Shown piece after piece: positions 1 to 18,611 of a DNA stretch of 64,000 nt. The position numbers and the translations under genes are program-made. The stretch's first letter is position 1. Every line of letters begins with the position of its first letter. Source of the DNA: a virus; IMG/VR virus record IMGVR_UViG_3300028027_000047, positions 1 to 64,000 of that record, one strand, 5' to 3'. The notes beneath the pieces were generated by a model. That model saw nothing but the letters and a program-made list of their open reading frames with translations. It did not search any database and was not told the origin of the DNA.

Positions 1-135
1 GCAACTGGTCCACAAGGATTAAAAGGTGACACTGGCGCAACAGGCGCAACTGGTCCACAAGGATTAAAAGGTGACACTGGCGCAACAGGCGCAACTGGTC
101 CACAAGGATTAAAAGGTGACACTGGCGAAACAGGC
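1..135 (+). repeat. 45-bp tandem repeat encoding collagen triplets
   Basis: Three consecutive 45-base units (1-45, 46-90, 91-135) are nearly identical at the nucleotide level and each encodes 15 residues, [12 protein letters not shown](A/E)TG. The third unit differs mainly by one Ala-to-Glu codon. The array runs off the left edge, so the copy number is unknown. Near identity in DNA as well as protein points to recent expansion, so rod length may vary between relatives. Confidence 0.95.
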
Positions 136-1500
136 GCAACTGGCCCACAAGGATCTAGCGGCACAGCTGCAACAGTAGCACTAGGATCAGTTACAACAGG
201 CTTAGCTGGATCTTCAGTGTCTATAACAAACTCTGGAACCACATCCGCGGCAATACTTAATTTTACAATTCCTCGTGGAGACACAGGGGCTTCGGGTACT
301 GGAGGATCAACGTTTTCTGGAACAACAGATTCTGTAACTGAAGGAACAGCAAATCTTTATTTTACAAATGAAAGAGCATCTGTTGCAAACAATCAAAGAT
401 TTACAGATGTTTATGTAAACATAAATCAGGCCACAGACGACTTGATGGCATACACAGCAAATAATTATGTAACAATATCAAATCTAGACAACAGATTAGG
501 TGGATATGTTATGGAAGCTGATGCGGATCTAGCGGGAGGGTATGCAAAAATTGGAGTTGCTAGCGGTAAGATATTAGACTCAGTTATTCCTACTACAATT
601 GCAAGAACCTCAGATATAACAGCAGCAATAGCAAATGTTGTAAATGCAGCACCAGACTCATTTGATACTCTTAAAGAAATTGCAGATTATATTTCTACAG
701 ATCAAACAGCTGCATCTTCATTAACTACATTAGTTGGAACTAAGCTTTCTTCTTCAACTGCCGCATCAACATATGCGCCACTTGCTTCACCAACATTTAC
801 TGGAACAGTTTCTGGTATTACAAAATCAATGGTAGGGCTTGGAAATGTGGATAACACTACAGATGCCTTAAAACCAATTTCCCAAGCTACTCAGACAGCA
901 TTAGATGCTAAATTAGCAGTAGCAACCGCATCAACAACATATGCGCCAAAAGCATCACCAACATTTACTGGAACAGTAGATTTTTCTGGTGCAGATGTAG
1001 TTCTAGGAGTACTACCAGCTCAAAGCTTTTCTTCCGTAGGTAAGTATTTAACAAGTAACGGTTCTCAGGCTTCTTGGTCTACAATAAACCTTGCAGACTA
1101 TGCAACTAAATTAAATCCAGTATTTTTGGGAACAGTAGACTTTACCAACGCAACAGTAACTGGAATACAGACTGGTGTGGCAGACAACTCAATAACATCA
1201 GCTAAAATTGCTGATGGAACAATTGTAGACAATGACATTAGCTCCTCAGCAGCAATAGATAAAACAAAAATTTATGGCACAGCGGTTACTAGAACAGACA
1301 TCGGTACAGTAGATAACGCTATGCTTGCTGGATCAATTGCAAATGCAAAGCTTGCAAATTCATCAATTACAATAAACGGAACCTCTGTTGCACTTGGAGG
1401 CTCAACAACAATTTCAGCAGGAGCAAAAACATTCTATAACAATACTGGCGCACTACCTGCTACGGGTATGGTTGCTGGAGATCTTTATATACAGTACTAG
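1..1500 (+). CDS. Collagen-like tail fibre protein, 5' end outside window
   Basis: The reading frame is open from base 1, so the gene starts to the left. The first ~50 visible residues are Gly-X-Y collagen triplets (repeats of [15 protein letters not shown]). They are followed by a beta-rich stretch with the SNSGTT...[11 protein letters not shown] pattern also found in the collagen-like gene at 17460. The rest carries fibre repeats typical of tailed phages, such as [24 protein letters not shown] and [17 protein letters not shown]. The likely role is a trimeric receptor-binding or decoration fibre, with the collagen part as a stiff rod. The next gene begins 7 bases downstream with no clear Shine-Dalgarno, so translation may be coupled. 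Function is inferred from repeats only. Confidence 0.85.
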
Positions 1501-6434: not shown

Positions 6435-6466
6435 TACCAAATAAGTCTAAATAAGGGGTGGCAAAT

Positions 6467-8680
6467 ATGTCAACAGTAAGAATTCAAGTAAGAAGAGGTA
6501 CAGCTTCACAGTGGACCTCAGTTAATCCAATTTTGGCAGCAGGAGAAATGGGTGTCGAGTCAGACACCAACCTATTTAAATTCGGTAACGGATCCTCTAC
6601 ATGGACTGCCCTTGCATATGCAAACAATTCAGATGTAGCGATTGGTGAAATATCCCAAGACGCAATTAACACCGCCCTTTCAATGGGAGCGGGACTCACA
6701 AAGTCATACAACGATGGAACAAATACAATCCAGATAACAGTGGACTCAACAGTAGTAGCACTTAAGTCATATGTAGATTCAGCAATCAGCGCATCAGCGA
6801 CAGCAATTGAAAATACAGCAGACTCGACATATTTGCTAGCAGCAGATCTTGGACAAGCAAATGGAGTAGCTTCACTTAATTCTTCTGGTAAAGTTCCAGC
6901 AGGTCAACTAGATATTGCAGAGGCAGTTCAAGACAATATTGCAGGAGCAATAGTTGCAGGTTCAGGCGTTACAAAAGCTTATGACGATACATTAAATACA
7001 ATAACATTAGAAGTAGACACATCAACGATTGCTTCAAAGTCTTATGTTGATTCAGGCATTTCAGCAGAATCAACAACTAGACAGTCTGGCTTAAATTCAG
7101 CTATAAATGCTGAAGTAACTGCTAGAACTTCAGCAATAGCTCTTGCAAAGTCTCAGGCAATCACAACAGCAGGAACATACACAGATACAGCAATTACTAA
7201 TTTAGTAAATGGCGCACCTGCAGTTCTAGATACCCTTAATGAGCTTTCAGCAGCACTTGGAGCAGATGCAAATTTTGCAACTACGGTTGCTACAAATATT
7301 TCAACAGCAGTAACAACTGCAGCTTCTTACACAGATGCACAGGTAAATATCGCAGTAGGAAATGCTCAAACTGTACAGACTGCACATGCAAATAAGACAA
7401 CATCTGTTCATGGTATTGCAGACACTTCTTTGCTTGCAACCACTTCAGATGTTGCAACTGCTAAATCAGAAGCAATTGCAGCAGCATCTACAGATGCCAC
7501 TACAAAAGCTAGCGCAGCACAGGCAGCAGCAATATCAACAGCAGCAACCGCGTCAGCAGCAGCAGTATCAACAGCAGCTTCAACCGCAGCAGCAGATGCA
7601 ACTACAAAAGCTAATGCAGCACAGGCAGCAGCAGTTGTAACAGCAGGAACTTATACAGATACATCTATTGGTGCAGAAGTAACTGCAAGAAACTCTGCTA
7701 TAACTGCAGCAGTCTCCGCAGAAACAGCAGATCGCTCTTCAGCAATCTCTGCAGCAGTAGCAACAGAAGTATCAAATAGAAATTCAGCGATTGCATCACA
7801 TGAAGCAGACACAACAAATGTTCATGGTATTGCAGACACTTCAGCGCTTGCAACCACAGCACATATCACAACACATAATTCAGATACCACAGATGTTCAC
7901 GGTATTGCAGACACTTCAGTTCTTGCAACAGATACAACAGTTGCAACTGCTAAATCAGAAGCAATTGCAGCAGCGGGAACAGCAGCTGATACAAAGGTTT
8001 CAACTGCGGTAGCAGCACTTACAAAGTCTTCAGTAGGACTTGCAAATGTTGACAATACAGCAGATGCATCAAAGCCAGTTTCAACAGCACAGGCTACAGC
8101 AATTGCAACTGCTAAATCAGAAGCAATCGCAGATGCAACATCACAAGTAAATGCACTATTAACAGGAGCTCCAGCAGCACTCAATACACTTGATGAACTT
8201 GCAGCAGCACTTGGTGATGACGCAAACTTCGCATCAACAGTTACAACTAATTTAGCAGCAAAAGCACCTCTTGCTTCACCAACATTTACTGGTACAGTAA
8301 CAGTTGCAGCAGCAGGAGTAGCATTTACAGACGGAACACAAACAAAAGCTGGAGTGCCGTCATTAACAACTACAACAACTACAGTTTCAGGAGCTTATAA
8401 CTTGTCAACTGGTGGACTTGCTCTGCGGGATCAGCTAGTTAATATTGCTGGAGCATTTGCAATTACAGTTCCAACGAATACAACAACAGCATATCCAGTT
8501 GGAACATCAATTGATTTCTGGCAATCATCTGGCGCAGGCGGAGCAAGCTTTGCACCAGTAGATGGCACAGTTACAATTTATTCAACACCAGGATCAACAT
8601 TAAGAGCACTATATTCATCAGCAACACTAACTAAAGTTGGAGCTAATGCATGGTTACTTGCTGGAGATCTAAAAGCTTAA
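6467..8680 (+). CDS. Long tail fibre with RGT-type N-terminal domain and Ala-rich shaft
   Basis: The N-terminus (VRIQVRRGTASQW...NPILAAGEMGVESDTNLFKFGNGSSTW, split here) is the common phage-fibre N-terminal module also seen in major tropism determinant-type proteins. An Ala-rich coiled-coil shaft follows, with repeated NVHGIADTSALATT, TEVSNRNSAIA and GAP(A)xLDTLNELSAALG motifs. The C-terminal ~110 residues are beta-rich (AITVPTNTTTAYPVGTSIDFWQ) and probably form the tip. I chose the ATG at 6467, 8 bases after AAGGGG; a GTG at 6458 is in frame but overlaps the Shine-Dalgarno. Length is 737 residues. Confidence 0.85.
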   Translation: MSTVRIQVRRGTASQWTSVNPILAAGEMGVESDTNLFKFGNGSSTWTALAYANNSDVAIGEISQDAINTALSMGAGLTKSYNDGTNTIQITVDSTVVALKSYVDSAISASATAIENTADSTYLLAADLGQANGVASLNSSGKVPAGQLDIAEAVQDNIAGAIVAGSGVTKAYDDTLNTITLEVDTSTIASKSYVDSGISAESTTRQSGLNSAINAEVTARTSAIALAKSQAITTAGTYTDTAITNLVNGAPAVLDTLNELSAALGADANFATTVATNISTAVTTAASYTDAQVNIAVGNAQTVQTAHANKTTSVHGIADTSLLATTSDVATAKSEAIAAASTDATTKASAAQAAAISTAATASAAAVSTAASTAAADATTKANAAQAAAVVTAGTYTDTSIGAEVTARNSAITAAVSAETADRSSAISAAVATEVSNRNSAIASHEADTTNVHGIADTSALATTAHITTHNSDTTDVHGIADTSVLATDTTVATAKSEAIAAAGTAADTKVSTAVAALTKSSVGLANVDNTADASKPVSTAQATAIATAKSEAIADATSQVNALLTGAPAALNTLDELAAALGDDANFASTVTTNLAAKAPLASPTFTGTVTVAAAGVAFTDGTQTKAGVPSLTTTTTTVSGAYNLSTGGLALRDQLVNIAGAFAITVPTNTTTAYPVGTSIDFWQSSGAGGASFAPVDGTVTIYSTPGSTLRALYSSATLTKVGANAWLLAGDLKA

Positions 8681-8707: not shown

Positions 8708-10285
8708 ATGGCAAAACACATAGGTAAGAAATCATCTGCACAAGATAACTTTGTTGGTCCAAATCCAGTGACTGGAGTTTCAGCATCAGATATAGGAACA
8801 GGACGGGCATACAATGATGGTGCAATTAGTGTTTCATGGACAGCGCCAGTAGGTGGAAATACCCCAACAGGATATAAGGTGTATGAGGGGGCCTCTGTAG
8901 TTGCTACAATTGCGTATGGAACAAATACTGCAACAATTACAGGGCTTGCTTCTGAATCAAGCCACACTTATTCTGTAGCATCATATGATTCATATAAAGA
9001 TAATAATACTAATGCAGTTGCTGCGTCAGCAGTAACTGCTACTACAGTTCCACAGGCACCATCAGTTTCTGCAACAGATGTTGGAACAGGTAGACCGTTT
9101 AATAATGGAGCAGCAACTGTTATAGTTACAGCAAATGCAACTGGAGGAAAAGCAATTTCAACATATGCAGCAACTCCAAACGGATTATCAGAAGTTACAG
9201 GTGCTTCAAGCACATTAACACCAACAGGAATGGCATCTGGAACAGGATATACATTTACTGGTAGAGTATCAAATGCAAATGGTTTTTCTGCAGCATCATC
9301 TGCAACAGCATCAATTACAATTACAACAGTTCCAGCTGCACCAACTGGATTATCTGCTGCAAATAATGGTCAAAATAATAACCGTGCATCTTGGACTGCG
9401 CCAGCAACTGGTGGGAAAGCAATTTCTAGCTACAATGTTTTTGATAATGGCGGCAATGCCCCAGACTCAATAAATACTGCAGGAACAACGGCTGACTTTA
9501 CAGGCCAGGCAGACAATTTTGGTTGGTACTTTAATGTCGAAGCTATAAATGCAAATGGAACTTCAGCAAGATCAACAAATTCAAGCACAATTACAACAAC
9601 GCCTTTTAGCTTTGTTCCATTTAGCTTTACGCCATTTGGCTTTACACCATTCGGCTTTACACCATTCGGCTTTACACCATTCGGCTTTACGCCATTTGGC
9701 TTTACACCATTCGGCTTTACACCATTCGGATTTACTCCATTTGGATTTACTCCATATGGGTTCTCTGGTGGTCTTTGCTTTAAATCACTTGGCGCAACAA
9801 CAATGGTACAGACAACAAATGGATTAGTAGCAGCTCACGATTTAGCAGTAGGAGACGTTCTTCTATCAGCAGATATTGAAACAATGCCTACAGAATTCCC
9901 TGGACCTCAGTCTGAATATCCAGACTGGTCTGTGGTTGATCCAACAGTAACACCAAAGACTACAACAATTACATCAATTGCAACTCGAAACTCTTCAACA
10001 ATTATAGTTGTAAATGGAGAGACATACGCAGACTCACACTACATATTTGTAAAAAGAGATGGCTTATCTAAGTTTGTAAATGTTAGCGAACTACTACTAA
10101 CAGACTTAGTCTTCTCTTCAGATACAAAAGAATGGGTTGAGGTTATACAGGTAGATGTAATTCCAAATGTATCTTACCCAGTAGTATGTATAAACACAGA
10201 GCCTTACGATGTATTTTATACCGAAAGATTCCTTGTTCACGATTCTTATACAATCGCCTCAGACAACCCAGTCGTAGGACAGTAA
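8708..10285 (+). CDS. Fn3 adhesin with FGFTP repeats and C-terminal Hint (intein-like) domain
   Basis: This 525-residue protein has three fibronectin-III-like domains (about residues 15-115, 115-205 and 205-298). Ten pentapeptide repeats (FSFVP, FSFTP, then eight FGFTP) cover about residues 300-349, and a Hint-like domain runs from Cys357 to Asp512. Hint hallmarks are C-F-K-S-L-G-A-T-T-M-V, then LAVGDVLLS, then ADSHYIFVKRDG with LLLTDLVFS, and finally ERFLVHDS near the C-terminus. Residues 513-525 would be a 13-residue C-extein. A Shine-Dalgarno AAAGGGG precedes the ATG. The probable role is a host-binding fibre that processes itself. The terminal Asp replaces the Asn usual in inteins, so splicing may be altered to cleavage only. 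Confidence 0.8.
   Translation: MAKHIGKKSSAQDNFVGPNPVTGVSASDIGTGRAYNDGAISVSWTAPVGGNTPTGYKVYEGASVVATIAYGTNTATITGLASESSHTYSVASYDSYKDNNTNAVAASAVTATTVPQAPSVSATDVGTGRPFNNGAATVIVTANATGGKAISTYAATPNGLSEVTGASSTLTPTGMASGTGYTFTGRVSNANGFSAASSATASITITTVPAAPTGLSAANNGQNNNRASWTAPATGGKAISSYNVFDNGGNAPDSINTAGTTADFTGQADNFGWYFNVEAINANGTSARSTNSSTITTTPFSFVPFSFTPFGFTPFGFTPFGFTPFGFTPFGFTPFGFTPFGFTPFGFTPYGFSGGLCFKSLGATTMVQTTNGLVAAHDLAVGDVLLSADIETMPTEFPGPQSEYPDWSVVDPTVTPKTTTITSIATRNSSTIIVVNGETYADSHYIFVKRDGLSKFVNVSELLLTDLVFSSDTKEWVEVIQVDVIPNVSYPVVCINTEPYDVFYTERFLVHDSYTIASDNPVVGQ
9605..9754 (+). repeat. 15-bp tandem repeat, ten units, encoding FGFTP-type pentapeptides
   Basis: Ten in-frame 15-base units encode FSFVP, FSFTP and eight FGFTP. 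Synonymous changes (TTT/TTC, ACA/ACG/ACT) occur between otherwise identical units, showing selection on the protein. Aromatic-Gly-Pro repeats of this type could form a rigid, sticky surface loop array. Confidence 0.95.
9776..10243 (+). other. Hint/intein-like autoprocessing domain (within adhesin)
   Basis: The domain is 156 residues, the size of a Hint or mini-intein fold without a homing endonuclease. The first residue is Cys357. The block-A-like GATTMVQTTNG and LAVGDVLL, the block-B-like ADSH (His444, where inteins have TxxH) and the C-terminal LVHD followed by Ser513 are all in the expected order and spacing. The Asp at the last position is unusual; Asn is normal. Confidence 0.7.
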
Positions 10286-10301: not shown

Positions 10302-10856
10302 ATGTCAGATACTTCTGAAAAACCATATGAAGTTATTGATGGAATGATATTTCCTAAAATCCAGGAGTACCCAAAAGAACTTGGGGATTCCTGGATACAG
10401 GTGACTAAATTTAGTAATGACTCAGCGATGTATGGGGTTATTTCTTTATATCTTGATAATAAGCATGATAAAGGAACAACTATTTTTTCGTCTTTTATCA
10501 GAAACAAGCACCCAGATGCATATATATCATTTCAACCAACTGGCAACGTAGATAGAGTTTATACCTCACCAGACCTTAGAAAAAAAGGAATCCTAGCAGC
10601 ACTCGGTGGTTATGGAAGAAATTTAATATTCTATCCTTATGAAAAAATATTGCTAGACCACTCTAGATCGTCTAGTCCAGCCGCAGATGAAACGCATGCA
10701 AGAGCAATAGGTAAAGCATTAGGCATTAACAATAAAGATGAGGTAAGAGAAACTAAACATTTTTTAAAACCACAGATTTTATATGAAGTAGAAAAGTCTC
10801 CACCGAGAGACGCCATATATCCGTGCATATGGGCAGAGAAAAGAATATGGGAATAA
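10302..10856 (+). CDS. GNAT-like acetyltransferase candidate
   Basis: This 184-residue protein has a segment (VDRVYTSPDLRKKGILAALGG, about residues 83-103) that resembles the acetyl-CoA-binding motif A of GNAT N-acetyltransferases. That motif is usually a beta strand followed by R/Q-x-x-G-x-G/A. The last glycine pattern is imperfect here, so the family assignment is tentative. A Shine-Dalgarno-like AAGTAAGG precedes the ATG. It is the first gene of the modification cassette, between the Hint adhesin and the dioxygenase genes. Acetylation of a fibre or of a host component is conceivable but not shown. Confidence 0.5.
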   Translation: MSDTSEKPYEVIDGMIFPKIQEYPKELGDSWIQVTKFSNDSAMYGVISLYLDNKHDKGTTIFSSFIRNKHPDAYISFQPTGNVDRVYTSPDLRKKGILAALGGYGRNLIFYPYEKILLDHSRSSSPAADETHARAIGKALGINNKDEVRETKHFLKPQILYEVEKSPPRDAIYPCIWAEKRIWE

Positions 10857-10857
10857 G

Positions 10858-11427
10858 ATGATTAAGAATATTATTAACATAAATAATGATTTATTGAAAA
10901 AAGATATCAATATAATTTTTTCTCAAATGAATGAAAAGATGCATATAGGTTCAAATGGTCTGCTTGTAAAATATTCTTTTGATAAAGAGTATTCATTTTT
11001 TAACGAAGATCAGTTTAATATTTTTACTACCTATAACAAGCAAATAAACCATATTTATCAAAATATAGCAAAATGCTTAAAAGAGCTAAATTTAGAATCT
11101 AAATTAAATTCAGAAAAAAGCATGCAGCATATTACTGGCAATCTGTTTTATGCTCACAGGTCTTTTAAAACACATGAGTATGATTATGTTTCATCACTTC
11201 CTGGATGCTATTTTGGATTATATGTAATAGATTCTAACAATTCTACAATATATATTAATGATGAAGAAACAAATCTAAATGATAAAGACCTTCTAATAAT
11301 TAGTGGAAATAAAAAAATTAACTTTAAAGACTTAGGTGAAAACTTTAATGCAATTGAATTTTATATTATGCCACTACATTATTTAAACGGACAATATTAC
11401 CAAAAATGGTGTCCAGTTATATGCTAA
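10858..11427 (+). CDS. Unknown protein of the modification cassette
   Basis: This 189-residue, Asn/Ile/Lys-rich protein is not a recognised family. The C-terminal half (GCYFGLYVIDSNNSTIYI, then DLLIISGNKKINFKDL) looks like a beta-sandwich or cupin, and the end (GQYYQKWCPVI) resembles the ends of the dioxygenase-like proteins downstream (QHWIPLL, QRWIPLA). It may be a divergent double-stranded beta-helix protein, but no metal-binding HxD/E...H set can be assigned. It starts 1 base after the previous stop and overlaps the next gene. Confidence 0.55.
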   Translation: MIKNIININNDLLKKDINIIFSQMNEKMHIGSNGLLVKYSFDKEYSFFNEDQFNIFTTYNKQINHIYQNIAKCLKELNLESKLNSEKSMQHITGNLFYAHRSFKTHEYDYVSSLPGCYFGLYVIDSNNSTIYINDEETNLNDKDLLIISGNKKINFKDLGENFNAIEFYIMPLHYLNGQYYQKWCPVIC

Positions 11428-12014
11428 AAAAATCTAAAGAAAATTTTCATTTTAAATATATAAATATATTTAATATAGATAATTTGCAGAATATTGTAAA
11501 AAATATTACCTTTGACAAAAATCAATCAGAGTATGACAGAAGAGACAGTACCTTTTCTGGTGCTCTCGGCGGATCTAGAAATGTTTATGATAGCGTAACG
11601 CCAATAACTATAAATGAAACTAATTTAAGCTGGACATACGGAGAAGATATACACTCAGATCAAAAATGCGACATTGCCTTGGCAGAAGAGATAGATCCGA
11701 TAATTAAACATTTAGAAAAACATGTAAACGGCAAAGTTGCTGAAGTTTCTTTAAATAATTTAAAAGCAGGAAACAATATAATTGGTCACTACGACACAGG
11801 GGACTACTATGAATACATGAGAAGATTCCACATACCTCTAGAAACAAATCCAGATGTTGTTTTCCATATCGAAAAGTCCTCTGTAATGATGTCTATTGGA
11901 CAATGCTGGGAAGTTAATAATGCAAAATATCACTCTGTTCGAAATGATGGGGAGTATGATAGAATACACTTAGTAGTTGACATTATGCCAAATGAAGCCA
12001 TGAGAAAAGAATGA
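11421..12014 (+). CDS. Aspartyl/asparaginyl beta-hydroxylase-like dioxygenase
   Basis: The sequence (IGHYDTGDYYEYMRRFHIPL, then CWEVNNAKYHSVRN and DRIHLVVDI) matches the Asp/Asn beta-hydroxylase family, a 2-oxoglutarate/Fe(II) enzyme fold. Candidate iron ligands are His123 and His171, with Arg181 as 2-oxoglutarate ligand (numbering from the ATG at 11421). That ATG overlaps the upstream stop (ATGCTAA); an in-frame ATG at 11406 would add five residues. Family members hydroxylate Asp, Asn or related side chains, and the substrate here is unknown. It is the first of five dioxygenase-type genes in the cluster. Confidence 0.8.
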   Translation: MLKKSKENFHFKYINIFNIDNLQNIVKNITFDKNQSEYDRRDSTFSGALGGSRNVYDSVTPITINETNLSWTYGEDIHSDQKCDIALAEEIDPIIKHLEKHVNGKVAEVSLNNLKAGNNIIGHYDTGDYYEYMRRFHIPLETNPDVVFHIEKSSVMMSIGQCWEVNNAKYHSVRNDGEYDRIHLVVDIMPNEAMRKE

Positions 12015-12015
12015 T

Positions 12016-12732
12016 ATGAAAAAAATAGAATTTTTCCCCAAGAGAAAAGATTTTGCCGAAGTCTTTCCCCAGCCAATACCAATTGTATCCTCAATGCCAT
12101 CCTGGTGGAAAACACAGCCATCTATTCTTGATAATAGCCAGAATCCAGTAAGTGGAGTTTTAAAGTTAACTGTAAAAAAATGCCAAGCAGTTTTTGATTC
12201 GATGACTGCGGGATACTACTTGCTATGCCCAGTAGATATTCATATAGATGCCACTGGGCCTAGGCTGCAAATTCAAATACCAATAAGTCAGTTTTCTCAA
12301 TATGGAGAAATAATAGCTCACCATACGCCAGAGCAAGTTGAAAAATATCCAAAAAAAGAATATTATCACCCTGAAGTGTTAAGGGTTCATCCAATGTGGC
12401 TAGTTCATACTCCTAAAAACTATAGCGCTCTATTTATCGAACCAATACACTCAGATGGAATACCCATACACTCTATTCCAGGAATTATTGATACAGATGC
12501 ATATATATCAGACGGGTACCTATCATTTTTTGTAGAAAAGGGTTTTAAGGGAACAATTAAGCAAGGAACACCAATAATTCAAGTCCTTCCATTTAAAAGA
12601 GATAGCTGGACAAGCTTCATTACAAAAGATAAAAATTCAGATAACACCATATTAAGCCAGCAATTAAAAGTAAGAACTGTTTTTCAAAATGGGTATAGGC
12701 TGAAGTTCTGGACAAAGAAAATATTTAAATAA
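12016..12732 (+). CDS. DUF6065-like protein (paralogue of the gene at 13363)
   Basis: This 238-residue protein shows a set of motifs that recurs in the gene at 13363. They are PxWW near the N-terminus, KKCQAVFDSMTAGYYLLCPVD, a W-x-HTPKNYSALFIEPIH segment, a GIIDTDxY segment, and GTIKQGTPIIQVLPFKRDSW. I recognise this pattern from a DUF6065-type family found in marine and freshwater phages, whose biochemical activity I do not know. It starts 1 base after the previous stop and its last base overlaps the next start, so it is translated with the cassette. Confidence 0.65.
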   Translation: MKKIEFFPKRKDFAEVFPQPIPIVSSMPSWWKTQPSILDNSQNPVSGVLKLTVKKCQAVFDSMTAGYYLLCPVDIHIDATGPRLQIQIPISQFSQYGEIIAHHTPEQVEKYPKKEYYHPEVLRVHPMWLVHTPKNYSALFIEPIHSDGIPIHSIPGIIDTDAYISDGYLSFFVEKGFKGTIKQGTPIIQVLPFKRDSWTSFITKDKNSDNTILSQQLKVRTVFQNGYRLKFWTKKIFK

Positions 12733-13373
12733 TGTTAGAGCAATCCCAGTCCTGGATTGAGATGCAAGATCTTAATTTTATTGATATATCTAGCAAGTCG
12801 CTACTTCCTCCAAAATGGAAAAACTGGTCTTTTGTTTTATCTGAGCATAAAGATGATCCTATTAAGCCAATCAACATGTATTCTGGAATATTTGGAGAAA
12901 GGCCGAAATTAATTTCAATTAAAGAAAACGTCATTACTTTAGAGCAGCACACCTACTCAGACATATACCTATTAATTAATTTTGATAAAAGCATATATGC
13001 AATAGATAAAGCACACCAAAGACAATTTTATATGTCTAGGAATAAATATAATATTGATAGTACTGGCATGCTGTCAAACCAATGCTTTAGAATGTTTATG
13101 CCATGGATAGTAGACTATAATGTGGACGCAAAGATTTACTCAGATAAACCAACATCGTTTAACATAATGCCAAAAGAAGTTAAGTTTTTTAAAAGAAACC
13201 CAGATCTGGATCAACAAGATACAGAGTTTATAGATTTTTATTTTACCAATAGCCCAGAGCACATGATTGAAAATGATTGTGGGATAATAGAAAAAGGATC
13301 TTACATTTATACAATTTCTTTTATAGCAGATGACATTCTTTTAAAACAAATACAGGAAATGTATGACAAATAA
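12732..13373 (+). CDS. Unknown protein between two DUF6065-like genes
   Basis: This 213-residue protein is not recognised. Parts (CFRMFMPWIVDYNVDAKIYSD, split in meaning; later NDCGIIEKGSYIYTISFI) occupy positions like the VDIH and G-x-I-x2-GTP-x-Q segments of its two neighbours. It may therefore be a diverged copy of the same fold. It overlaps the upstream gene by 1 base (TAATG) and the downstream gene by 11 bases. Codon use is AT-rich like the surrounding cassette. Confidence 0.55.
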   Translation: MLEQSQSWIEMQDLNFIDISSKSLLPPKWKNWSFVLSEHKDDPIKPINMYSGIFGERPKLISIKENVITLEQHTYSDIYLLINFDKSIYAIDKAHQRQFYMSRNKYNIDSTGMLSNQCFRMFMPWIVDYNVDAKIYSDKPTSFNIMPKEVKFFKRNPDLDQQDTEFIDFYFTNSPEHMIENDCGIIEKGSYIYTISFIADDILLKQIQEMYDK

Positions 13374-14091
13374 ACTAAAAATTATTTTTAGCCCGTCAGC
13401 AATTGAGCTAAAGGACAGTCTCCTTCAACCAGAGCCAGCAATTAAATTTATTCCTGAGTGGTATAAAAAAATATCTAGATTTTATAAAAACAATACCATT
13501 TCCTCATTAAATCCAATTAACGACAGAGGAACAGATGGAAGCGCATCCTCGACCAAACTGTGTATGCCATTTTTTGATGCAATTACTTCTGGTTATATAT
13601 ATAGGCTGGACACAGATGTTGAAGTGTCTTTGGACGATAACGGGAAACCAATTTTAAATTGGGGCGGAGATGTAATGGTTTGCGATAAAAGATTGATGAT
13701 AGATGTCGCAGTACCGTACCAGCATCACCCAGTACATTTTGGATTTAAAATGCATTGGTATTATGAGACACCCCCAGGCTATTCTTTGTTGATTACACAC
13801 CCAATGAATAGACACGATCTTCCGTTTACTGTTCTGTCTGGAATTGTCGACTCAGACATATGGGGCTTGCCAGTGTTCATATCATTTTTTGTAAAAAGAA
13901 ATTTTGTTGGCATTATTCCAAAAGGGACCCCTTTATTCCAAATGATCCCAATTAAAAGGGATGAGTGGGAAATGGAAATAGATTACTCTGTAAAGAAACA
14001 TTTAATCAATAAGGTTGATGAAGAGAGAAGAAGATCTAAGATATTTGCATATTATAAAAGCCACGCCTGGAGAAGAAAGAAATACGAATAG
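13363..14091 (+). CDS. DUF6065-like protein (second copy)
   Basis: This 242-residue protein repeats the motif order of the gene at 12016: PEWYKK near the N-terminus, CMPFFDAITSGYIYRLDTDVEV, TPPGYSLLITHPMNRHDLPF, GIVDSDIWGLPV and GIIPKGTPLFQMIPIKRDEW. This is the clearer DUF6065-like match of the two. The C-terminus is basic. Function is unknown; its position among dioxygenases and a glycosyltransferase suggests a role in the same pathway. A short gap with a promoter-like sequence follows. Confidence 0.7.
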   Translation: MTNKLKIIFSPSAIELKDSLLQPEPAIKFIPEWYKKISRFYKNNTISSLNPINDRGTDGSASSTKLCMPFFDAITSGYIYRLDTDVEVSLDDNGKPILNWGGDVMVCDKRLMIDVAVPYQHHPVHFGFKMHWYYETPPGYSLLITHPMNRHDLPFTVLSGIVDSDIWGLPVFISFFVKRNFVGIIPKGTPLFQMIPIKRDEWEMEIDYSVKKHLINKVDEERRRSKIFAYYKSHAWRRKKYE

Positions 14092-16247: not shown

Positions 16248-16786
16248 AGATAAAAATAATTGAAGATTTTATTACTGATTACGACGCACATTCATTGATA
16301 TCTGAAATAAATAACCCATCATCCGTAAATGAATACCCAGACTACTATGCTGATAGAAATGGCGGAACGGCATTCCCATACAACAATACAGTGATAAGCA
16401 TACTTAGAAAGTATGCAAAGGAAGCTAATTTAATTCAAAAAGAATTTTTTGAAACAGACAGGGATGTAATAATTACTAAGTCTTTTGGTTCTGGATGGGG
16501 CCCAGGTATGAGCGGAAACCCACACATAGACGCAATAGAAAAAGAGCCTTTTATAGAATATAGCTCTGTAATATATCTTAATGATGGGTACACTGGAGGA
16601 GACATATACTTTCCAAAACAAAACTTTACGCATAGCCCTAAAAAGTACTCAGCAATATTTTTTCCAGGAAACGACTATGAGTATTTGCATGGTGTTTCAA
16701 AAATTGAAACTGGCAACAGGTACACAGCACTCTTTATGCAATCAACGCAAAAAGAATTTATGGATCCAGATTTTGAGGGATGTTAA
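16244..16786 (+). CDS. Prolyl-4-hydroxylase-like 2OG/Fe(II) dioxygenase (first)
   Basis: The 180-residue protein has a standard P4H-type core: NPHIDA (His94, Asp96), SSVIYLNDGYTGGDIYFP, then SAIFFPGND, LHGV (His149) and NRYTALF (Arg159). The HxD...H iron triad and the Arg for 2-oxoglutarate are all present, and the LNDxYxGGxxxFP segment is characteristic of prolyl hydroxylases. The chosen ATG overlaps the upstream stop (ATGA). An extended N-terminus of five residues is possible. Collagen-like fibres encoded on either side of the cassette are natural candidate substrates. Confidence 0.85.
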   Translation: MKIKIIEDFITDYDAHSLISEINNPSSVNEYPDYYADRNGGTAFPYNNTVISILRKYAKEANLIQKEFFETDRDVIITKSFGSGWGPGMSGNPHIDAIEKEPFIEYSSVIYLNDGYTGGDIYFPKQNFTHSPKKYSAIFFPGNDYEYLHGVSKIETGNRYTALFMQSTQKEFMDPDFEGC

Positions 16787-17439
16787 TGGAATTTAAACAG
16801 CTTGCATTGGGCGTAGTTCAGTATAATGGGATAATTAAAAGCCCACAACTTATTATTGATAAGATTGAAGATTTAGAAATAAAAAGACAGGAAGACCCTT
16901 CTTACAAATCAGAGTTTGTTAAAGAATGGACTGCCTGGGATTATGATCATGGCGGACCAGAGAAAACTGTTTTTTGCTGGCAAAAGTTTTTACCAAAACC
17001 AGAAGATATTAGTTTAGATGACAAGTTTTACAAAGAGCAACACTTCATATCGTCAGAGCTTTTTGGTTCTTTAGAAACAGCTCTAAAACATTACTTTACA
17101 ATTTACCCTTATGCTGAAAAAAATATTAAGGCTAGAGAAAAAACAATGCACGTTTTAAAGTACAAGGAAAGCGGATTCCTCCCAGCTCATTCTGACCACG
17201 GAATTAGCAGTAGGGTTTTATCTGCACTTCTTTATTTAAACGATGATTACGAAGGAGGGACGTTAAGGTTTCCACACCTTGGCCTTGAGCTAAAGCCACA
17301 GGCAGGCACAATATTGTTTTTCCCATCAAACTTTGTGTATGTCCATGAAGTAGATGCAGTTACTTCTGGCACAAGGTATTCCCTGCCAAATTGGTATCAT
17401 AATAGAAAGCACCCCTACTACTCAGATGGCACTGAGTAG
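16786..17439 (+). CDS. Prolyl-4-hydroxylase-like 2OG/Fe(II) dioxygenase (second)
   Basis: This 217-residue protein has the same core as the previous gene: HSDHG (His135, Asp137), SALLYLNDDYEGGTLRFP, GTILFFPSN, VHEV (His187) and GTRYSLPNWY (Arg197). The N-terminal 110 residues differ from its neighbour, so the two are not simple duplicates. It starts at a TAATG overlap. Twenty bases after its stop the collagen-like fibre at 17460 begins, the tightest physical link between a prolyl hydroxylase and a collagen-like substrate in the window. Confidence 0.85.
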   Translation: MEFKQLALGVVQYNGIIKSPQLIIDKIEDLEIKRQEDPSYKSEFVKEWTAWDYDHGGPEKTVFCWQKFLPKPEDISLDDKFYKEQHFISSELFGSLETALKHYFTIYPYAEKNIKAREKTMHVLKYKESGFLPAHSDHGISSRVLSALLYLNDDYEGGTLRFPHLGLELKPQAGTILFFPSNFVYVHEVDAVTSGTRYSLPNWYHNRKHPYYSDGTE

Positions 17440-17459: not shown

Positions 17460-18611
17460 ATGGCTACTACAGGTATAAACGGTTGGCACTTCCCAACATA
17501 CACGGACTCCCCAGACGTACCTAGAGATCTAGGTGTTCTTGGTGCAGATATAGCTGCATTTATTGCAGCAAACCCTGGACCACAAGGATCATCAGGACCA
17601 GCAAATGTTATAACGGTTGCTGCCACAAACACTATTGCTCCAGGACAAAATGCTTCAGTAACTATTAGCGGAACGTCCCCATCTCAATCATTAACATTTA
17701 ATATTCCAAGAGGTGTAGATGGCGTTTTAGGCGGACCAGGACCAGCAAACGTATTAAGTGTTGGAACCGTGGCATCAGGAGCTTCTGGAACACAACCGCA
17801 GGTAACTATAACAGGAACTGCCCCCTCTCAAACAATAAATTTTACAATTCCTCGTGGAGATACTGGATTGACTGGAATTACTGGCGCAACAGGCGCTACT
17901 GGTCCCAAAGGTGATGCGGCAGCAACAATAACAGTCGCTCCAACAGTCACAACATCAGCAGCTGGCACAAATGCGGAAGTAACAAATTCTGGAACATCTA
18001 GCGATGTAATTTTAAACTTTACAATACCTCGTGGAGCAGACGGATTGCCTGGAGCAGATGGAGCTCCTGGAGCTCCTGGAGCAACAGGACCAGCTGGAAC
18101 AAATGCAAACATTGATCCAATCGCTACAAGAATCTCATTAAACTTTTCAGCAACAGATCTTTCACCAGTTGGAGTTAATTCAAACTGGTTTCCACTGTCT
18201 AACAACACATTCACCTTGGGTCTCATGGGACCGCTAAACGCAGGACCCCCAGAGCAGCGTACAACAAGAGGCTGGAAAAATATATATTCGAATAACAGTG
18301 CCACAACAATTTCTGATGCAAGAACAAAAGAAAACATAGCCACATCAGATCTAGGGCTAGATTTTATAAATGATTTGCATCCTGTTAAATATAATAAAAT
18401 TGAAGGAAATAGAACACACTACGGTTTAATTGCACAAGAAGTCAAATCAGTAGTAGATGCTTCTGGGGTTGCCGATTTTGGTGGATGGCTAATATCTGAT
18501 GTTAATGATTTAGAAGGACAGCAAGCGCTAAGATATGAAGAGTTTATATCCCCATTAATTAAAGCGGTGCAAGAGCTTACAGCAAGAGTAAAAATACTAG
18601 AAGAGCAGTAG
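17460..18611 (+). CDS. Collagen-like fibre with C-terminal S74 chaperone domain
   Basis: This 383-residue protein begins with INGWHFPTYTDSPDVPRDLG and contains repeated beta modules ([33 protein letters not shown]). Short collagen triplets follow, including [16 protein letters not shown] and GAPGAPGATGPAG (around residues 137-219). The C-terminal ~100 residues form an intramolecular chaperone of the peptidase S74 type: SDARTKENI with the expected Ser, LGLDFINDLHPVKY, HYGLIAQEV and PLIKAVQELTARVKILE. S74 domains trimerise fibres and then cleave themselves off. The start is probably leaderless. Confidence 0.9.
   Translation: MATTGINGWHFPTYTDSPDVPRDLGVLGADIAAFIAANPGPQGSSGPANVITVAATNTIAPGQNASVTISGTSPSQSLTFNIPRGVDGVLGGPGPANVLSVGTVASGASGTQPQVTITGTAPSQTINFTIPRGDTGLTGITGATGATGPKGDAAATITVAPTVTTSAAGTNAEVTNSGTSSDVILNFTIPRGADGLPGADGAPGAPGATGPAGTNANIDPIATRISLNFSATDLSPVGVNSNWFPLSNNTFTLGLMGPLNAGPPEQRTTRGWKNIYSNNSATTISDARTKENIATSDLGLDFINDLHPVKYNKIEGNRTHYGLIAQEVKSVVDASGVADFGGWLISDVNDLEGQQALRYEEFISPLIKAVQELTARVKILEEQ

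Follow-up and report, generated by a model that had tools for sequence, protein, structure and literature searches.

What an intein-like domain does at the very end of a phage tail fibre is the question raised by this locus. The window analysed here consists of the first 64 kb (64,000 nucleotides) of a virus record of 116,220 bases, and the portal, protease, capsid and tape-measure genes found in it indicate a tailed phage. The capsid gene weakly resembles those of Streptomyces phages (73% over 329 bases). The features discussed below are listed in Table 1.

Table 1. Positions of the Hint-tipped fibre gene, its predicted functional residues and neighbouring features in the 64,000-nucleotide window.
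Feature	Position	Strand	Remarks
Collagen-like (Gly-X-Y) 45-base tandem repeat	1-154		start of the window; 98% matches
Mtd_N-type fibre	6458-8680		upstream of the Hint-fibre gene
Fibre/adhesin-like gene (525 aa)	8708..10285	+	fn3 domains, aromatic-Pro repeat linker, C-terminal Hint domain
PFSF[VT]/PFGFT/PYGF array	9602..9763	+	residues 299-352 (54 residues); low-complexity linker before the Hint domain
Cys357	9776..9778	+	position -3; unconserved linker residue, rank 156 of 158 columns
Lys359	9782..9784	+	position -1; predicted scissile residue
Hint domain proper	9785..10243	+	residues 360-512 (153 residues); AF2, Foldseek/VIA, profiles
Ser360	9785..9787	+	Hint position 1; predicted nucleophile; 61/61 in the clade
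Ala441	10028..10030	+	block B position 7; Ser/Thr in all 72 other relatives
His444	10037..10039	+	block B position 10; invariant in the Ser1 clade
His511-Asp512-Ser513	10238..10246	+	C-terminal junction; weighted conservation: Asp 97%, His and Ser 56% each
C-terminal tail, Tyr514 to Gln525	10247..10282	+	13 residues in all after Asp512
Partner 1, GNAT-like protein (~180 aa)	10302..10856	+	directly 3' of the Hint gene
Partner 2, A4-family protein (189 aa)	10858..11427	+	co-occurs with partner 1
Collagen-like fibre with C-terminal Peptidase_S74 (endosialidase chaperone)	17460-18608		downstream of the Hint-fibre gene

The fn3 domains of the fibre protein were recognized with a Pfam E value of 4.5e-11. 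The FGFTP-type array reported for this adhesin in a first-pass annotation was confirmed: it is composed of eight exact PFGFT units, flanked by two PFSF[VT] units and one PYGF unit (10.5 copies according to TRF). The same gene, with the same layout and an identical Hint domain, is present in a near-identical metagenome record (L001). Codon comparison of the two records revealed 8 synonymous and 14 non-synonymous differences in the fn3 part, one synonymous and no non-synonymous difference in the Hint part, and 8 synonymous and no non-synonymous differences in the repeat array. Because of this last ratio, the sequence of the array is probably kept by selection and not a product of chance. A low-complexity aromatic/Pro/Gly repeat precedes the Hint domain in most relatives (PFFPPFF, FFAPPG, FGFTP, FGA, NPGF, PPADPP and others), and the FGFTP array can be seen as one case of a general layout in which a repeat is followed by the Hint domain.

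The homology of the C-terminal region is visible only with profiles and structure, since the single protein gave no significant match: its Hint region matched no Pfam family, and its best hit in the PDB was a non-significant one (E 1.1) to 2lwy, a BIL domain of C. thermocellum. A profile of 25 members matched the same domain with an E value of 4.4e-10, together with many inteins, and Pfam Intein_splicing was matched by 19 of these 25 members (best E 1.9e-8). An AlphaFold2 model of the region (pLDDT 86, pTM 0.82) gave VIA Z scores of 18.3 for BIL2 (6y75), 17.9 for the Ssp DnaB intein, 17.6 for 2lwy, 17.4 for the Mtu RecA intein and 17.1 for Hedgehog (1at0). There were 83 PDB chains with a Z of at least 8, and among the 50 entries listed all were Hint-type proteins. 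On the evidence of model and profiles, the C-terminal region is a real Hint domain, as the first-pass annotation had proposed; it combines the predicted fold with one of the residues (Cys, Ser or Thr) expected at position 1 (Ser360) and with the block B His (His444).

A scan with the nearest relative yielded 26 loci, and one of IMG/VR with an alignment of 13 sequences yielded 179, of which 80 were kept. The comparison comprised 73 non-redundant relatives, including 61 (~32 effective) with Ser at position 1. In a tree calculated without the catalytic columns, these 61 form a single group (support 100); the relatives outside it have Cys at position 1 and the usual intein spacing. A separate scan, of GTDB genome contigs, found no relative, and a cellular origin was rejected; the Ser1 type was not found in the cultured phages searched, which yielded only weak Cys1-type relatives. 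Ser1-type Hint tips end tail-fibre proteins of many uncultured freshwater phages. In all relatives read but one, the domain lies at the C-terminus and only a short tail follows it, and the tails that follow the terminal Asp in the Ser1 clade are variable and mostly of 4-13 residues. The exception (L176:2-283) is a Ser-clade domain with an HDS end, followed by ~38 extra residues.

Position 1 was assigned to Ser360 by sequence alignment and by structural alignment. In the latter, model residue 15 (Ser360; protein residue = model residue + 345) is the first to coincide with position 1 of several inteins and matches Hedgehog residue 258; the last intein residue corresponds to Asp512 (model residue 167). 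Since position 1 is Ser360, the domain has 153 residues (360-512) and not the 156 given in the first-pass annotation, which had correctly placed the His-Asp-Ser end and the 13 residues after the Asp. Ten of the 158 columns are invariant in the Ser1 clade, including Ser360, His444 and Asp501, and the conservation of Ser1, of the His at block B position 10 (B:10) and, nearly, of the terminal Asp equals that of structural glycines. The terminal Asp is not a peculiarity of this phage: in the alignment it recurs in 60 of the 61 clade members, even where the preceding His is replaced by Phe or Tyr, whereas the readable ends of the Cys1 type are Asn. The complete HDS end is found in 38 of 61 members, FDN, YDG, FDR and YNL being among the other ends, and the residue at +1 may be Gly, Asn, Arg, His, Thr, Ala or Leu. 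Position -1 also varies among the relatives (K, G, Y, F or D). Block F position 4 (F:4) is occupied not by the common Asp, but by Ser in most relatives and by Cys494 here. All 72 other relatives carry Ser or Thr at block B position 7 (B:7), and we therefore suspect that Ala441 may slow the first step in this copy in comparison with its kin.

In inteins, Cys1 or Ser1, Thr B:7 and His B:10 drive the first acyl shift, and the penultimate His, the terminal Asn and the +1 nucleophile drive splicing (PMC4031507). Asp-ended inteins can use the standard mechanism (PMC4031507), so the Asp alone does not exclude splicing. B-type BIL domains have the intein motifs minus the C-terminal one, and N-terminal cleavage is possible in them (PMC7765530). 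Our preferred reading, which we hold to be somewhat probable, is that the last 166 residues constitute a C-terminal Hint autoprocessing domain of a Ser1/terminal-Asp type, performing N-terminal cleavage or transfer, with splicing not the main outcome. From the predicted fold, the residue assignment, the clade-wide conservation and the gene linkage described below, we infer the chemistry, its purpose and the roles of the partners as follows. Ser360 would attack the carbonyl of Lys359 in an N-to-O acyl shift assisted by His444, leaving the FGFTP linker with an ester at its end. Water or another nucleophile would then break the ester at Lys359, and the fn3-FGFTP fibre would thereby be released from its Hint tip or transferred off it. 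The same tip of the fibre would probably be the target of the neighbouring GNAT-like and A4-family proteins.

N-terminal chemistry is favoured because Ser360 and His444 are invariant, whereas His511 and Ser513 are relaxed. The earlier suggestion that the Asp favours cleavage over splicing is only partly right, and this contrast is a better argument than the Asp; the self-processing role suggested for the adhesin appears probable. The points against N-terminal processing are Ala441 in this copy, the lack of the common Asp at F:4 and the variable residue at -1; the conservation of Ser1 and His could also preserve a fold or a binding site. The strongest alternative is a degenerate, non-cutting Hint fold that caps the fibre tip structurally or assists there in folding or trimerisation. 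In its favour, the block F Asp is absent, the Ser/Thr at B:7 is missing in this copy, and the C-terminal catalysts are relaxed (56% for His511 and Ser513). A pure fold would not need an invariant Ser1 and His B:10 and a nearly invariant terminal Asp. We regard such a cap as unlikely, though it is to be taken seriously.

The Hint-fibre gene, the GNAT-like gene and the A4-family gene form a cassette, newly recognized here from gene order and sequence comparison and missed in the first-pass annotation. Homologues of partner 1 lie directly 3' of the Hint gene in 50 of the 58 Ser1 loci with enough flanking sequence and in none of the 11 such Cys1-type loci. Sorted by the residue at -1, they are present in 45/45 scorable loci with Lys, 5/6 with Gly and 0/7 with Asp, Tyr or Phe. 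The A4-family gene has the same distribution (46 Ser1 loci, no Cys1 loci). A search with partner 1 only, for which a subset of partner alignment A3 was taken because of the diversity of the whole, recovered 71 loci: 66 with a Hint gene upstream, three at a contig edge and two distant ones behind a Hint-less fibre. In the latter (L178:2944-4045 and L179:2884-3937), the distant partner-1 relatives are apparently two in a row. On the tree, Lys at -1 and partner 1 are concordant, changing jointly in 2-3 places; the two supported independent pairs are too few for the association to reach significance. The scarcity of independent events and the distant relatives beside Hint-less fibres are points against a link between the partners and the Hint domain.

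Partner 1 looks GNAT-like, an assignment that we consider weak. In its AlphaFold2 model (pLDDT 74), nearly all top VIA rows were GNATs (best Z 6.5), and Foldseek returned nothing with an E value below 1e-3. Motif A (Q/R-x-x-G-x-G/A) aligned weakly to that of RibT (E 0.29), with the last Gly/Ala missing; the invariant Pro90 and Arg93 and the near-invariant Gly96 are at the right place relative to the RibT motif. Weak matches to Pfam Acetyltransf_1 were obtained for 5 of 48 members.

Within our preferred reading, a special case is transfer in place of hydrolysis: an outside nucleophile would resolve the Lys359 ester, assisted by the GNAT-like and A4-family proteins in an accessory role, and the fibre tip would become covalently linked to a small molecule, to a different virion protein or to a group on the host surface. 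Hedgehog provides the precedent, since it performs a transfer of this kind with cholesterol as the nucleophile. The tight linkage of the cassette genes and the tracking of the GNAT-like gene by Lys at -1 are in agreement with such a role. The proposal names no candidate acceptor, the GNAT assignment is weak, and Lys(-1) and the partner change together at few places in the tree. We think transfer rather improbable. Carried further, the Ser1/Asp Hint domain and the two partners would be a dedicated cassette that covalently finishes the fibre tip, the partners modifying or conjugating the new C-terminus generated from the ester at Lys(-1). We put this forward as a speculative and rather improbable proposal; if true, the cassette would be a route of virion maturation without an earlier description in the open literature searched.

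Full splicing would involve the Ser360 shift, transfer to Ser513 and cyclisation of Asp512, ligating the fibre to the 13-residue C-terminal peptide (product fibre-SYTIASDNPVVGQ). As in class 1 inteins with a C-terminal Asp, this protein has a Ser1 nucleophile position, His B:10 and an HD-S end, and Asp512-Ser513 fits such a variant, class 1 inteins having Cys, Ser or Thr at +1 and, besides the normal terminal Asn, known variants with Asp or Gln; HDS is retained in more than half of the clade, and terminal-Asp inteins can splice (PMC4031507). The FDN, YDG, FDR or YNL ends of other members and their differing +1 residues argue against it, the penultimate His and +1 being relaxed. Nothing indicates that the domain was inserted into a protein that is otherwise continuous or conserved, and a homing endonuclease is absent. 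The class 1 hallmark of a substantial C-extein is also absent, the would-be extein being 13 residues here and in the clade usually a variable tail of 4-8 residues; tails so short and variable would hardly justify splicing and led us to reject a splicing intein. We judge splicing to be quite unlikely. The first-pass version, with Cys357 as nucleophile of a 156-residue domain, was rejected as very improbable: there is a Cys near the domain start, but structural and sequence alignments place it at -3, in almost the least conserved column.

Of the known systems, B-type BIL domains (Amitai et al. 2003; Dassa et al. 2004, as reviewed in PMC7765530) are similar in (i) the Hint fold, (ii) their variable, surface-type host proteins and (iii) the retention of the N-terminal motifs without the C-terminal His-Asn motif. 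In the phage domain, blocks A, B and F are recognizable, and HD, FD or YD takes the place of the terminal HN. Cys1 is usual in BIL domains; the phage domain differs in its Ser1 and conserved terminal Asp, in its C-terminal position on fibres after a repeat linker and in the linked GNAT-like and A4-family genes. The closest solved sequence relative, 2lwy, ends in His-Asn. An A-type BIL was rejected, as the conserved C-terminal His-Asn is replaced by His-Asp here and Asp prevails in the clade. A class 3 intein (Trp B:12, Cys F:4, Thr G:5) was likewise rejected: only one of the three residues is present (Ile446, Cys494, Val510), and most relatives have Ser at F:4.

The Hog domain of Hedgehog shares the fold, the C-terminal position and the expectation of N-terminal-only chemistry. 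It differs in having Cys1 and a sterol-recognition region, which is absent from the phage protein, where the chain stops 13 residues past Asp512, and the phage domains have Ser or Cys at F:4. The classic self-cleaving C-terminal domain of phage fibres is Peptidase_S74, the endosialidase intramolecular chaperone, which is unrelated to the Hint tip in fold and catalysis. Fibres of both kinds are encoded by this one phage.

The jumbo phages Erwinia pEa_SNUABM_5, Dickeya AD1 and Phage NCTB also have a C-terminal Hint domain on a fibre-like protein; unlike the present one, these tips are of the Cys1/His-Asn type on a collagen-like stem and share only 26-27% identity with the queries used. The Phage NCTB record describes its protein as a "putative phage tail protein, contains intein domain". 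Adjoining this full Hint-tipped tail protein is an "intein domain protein" (L180:3480-3938), a Hint-like protein of 153 aa that lacks the region in which position 1 is normally found. Hint domains on tail fibres were not described in the open literature searched, in which only ordinary inteins in phage enzymes (TerL, ribonucleotide reductase) were encountered; the earlier remark that they are not well described in phage adhesins holds to this extent, despite the NCTB entry.

The surroundings of the Hint-fibre gene constitute a fibre module, with collagen-like repeats upstream and genes for a laminin-G-like protein and 2OG-Fe(II) oxygenases downstream. An aspartyl/asparaginyl hydroxylase-like gene (11406-12014) and a 2OG-Fe(II) oxygenase gene (16780-17439) lie inside this module, in a phage that has collagen-like and Pro-rich fibres, and similar oxygenase genes appear to be found repeatedly next to Hint fibres. 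A pair of related genes (12016-12732 and 13363-14091) is near DUF6065 (E 5e-4 for the second); a DUF6065-like family is found directly 3' of the Hint fibre in L089 and L091, both of which are without the partner genes. A related phage encodes, close to its Hint fibre, a 532-aa FAD-type enzyme (L002:1636-3234) that we take to resemble a tryptophan halogenase.

The chemistry of Hint domains is already known from inteins, BIL domains and Hedgehog. What is added here is a large, clade-wide Hint family (179 loci in one IMG/VR scan) that is fixed to the ends of phage fibres and has its own Ser1/terminal-Asp signature and linked genes. If active, the domain would be a second self-cutting fibre-tip system in phages, besides Peptidase_S74, by which some other moiety might even be attached to the end that binds the receptor. 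Protein engineering, too, would gain a Hint domain of the Ser1/Asp type.
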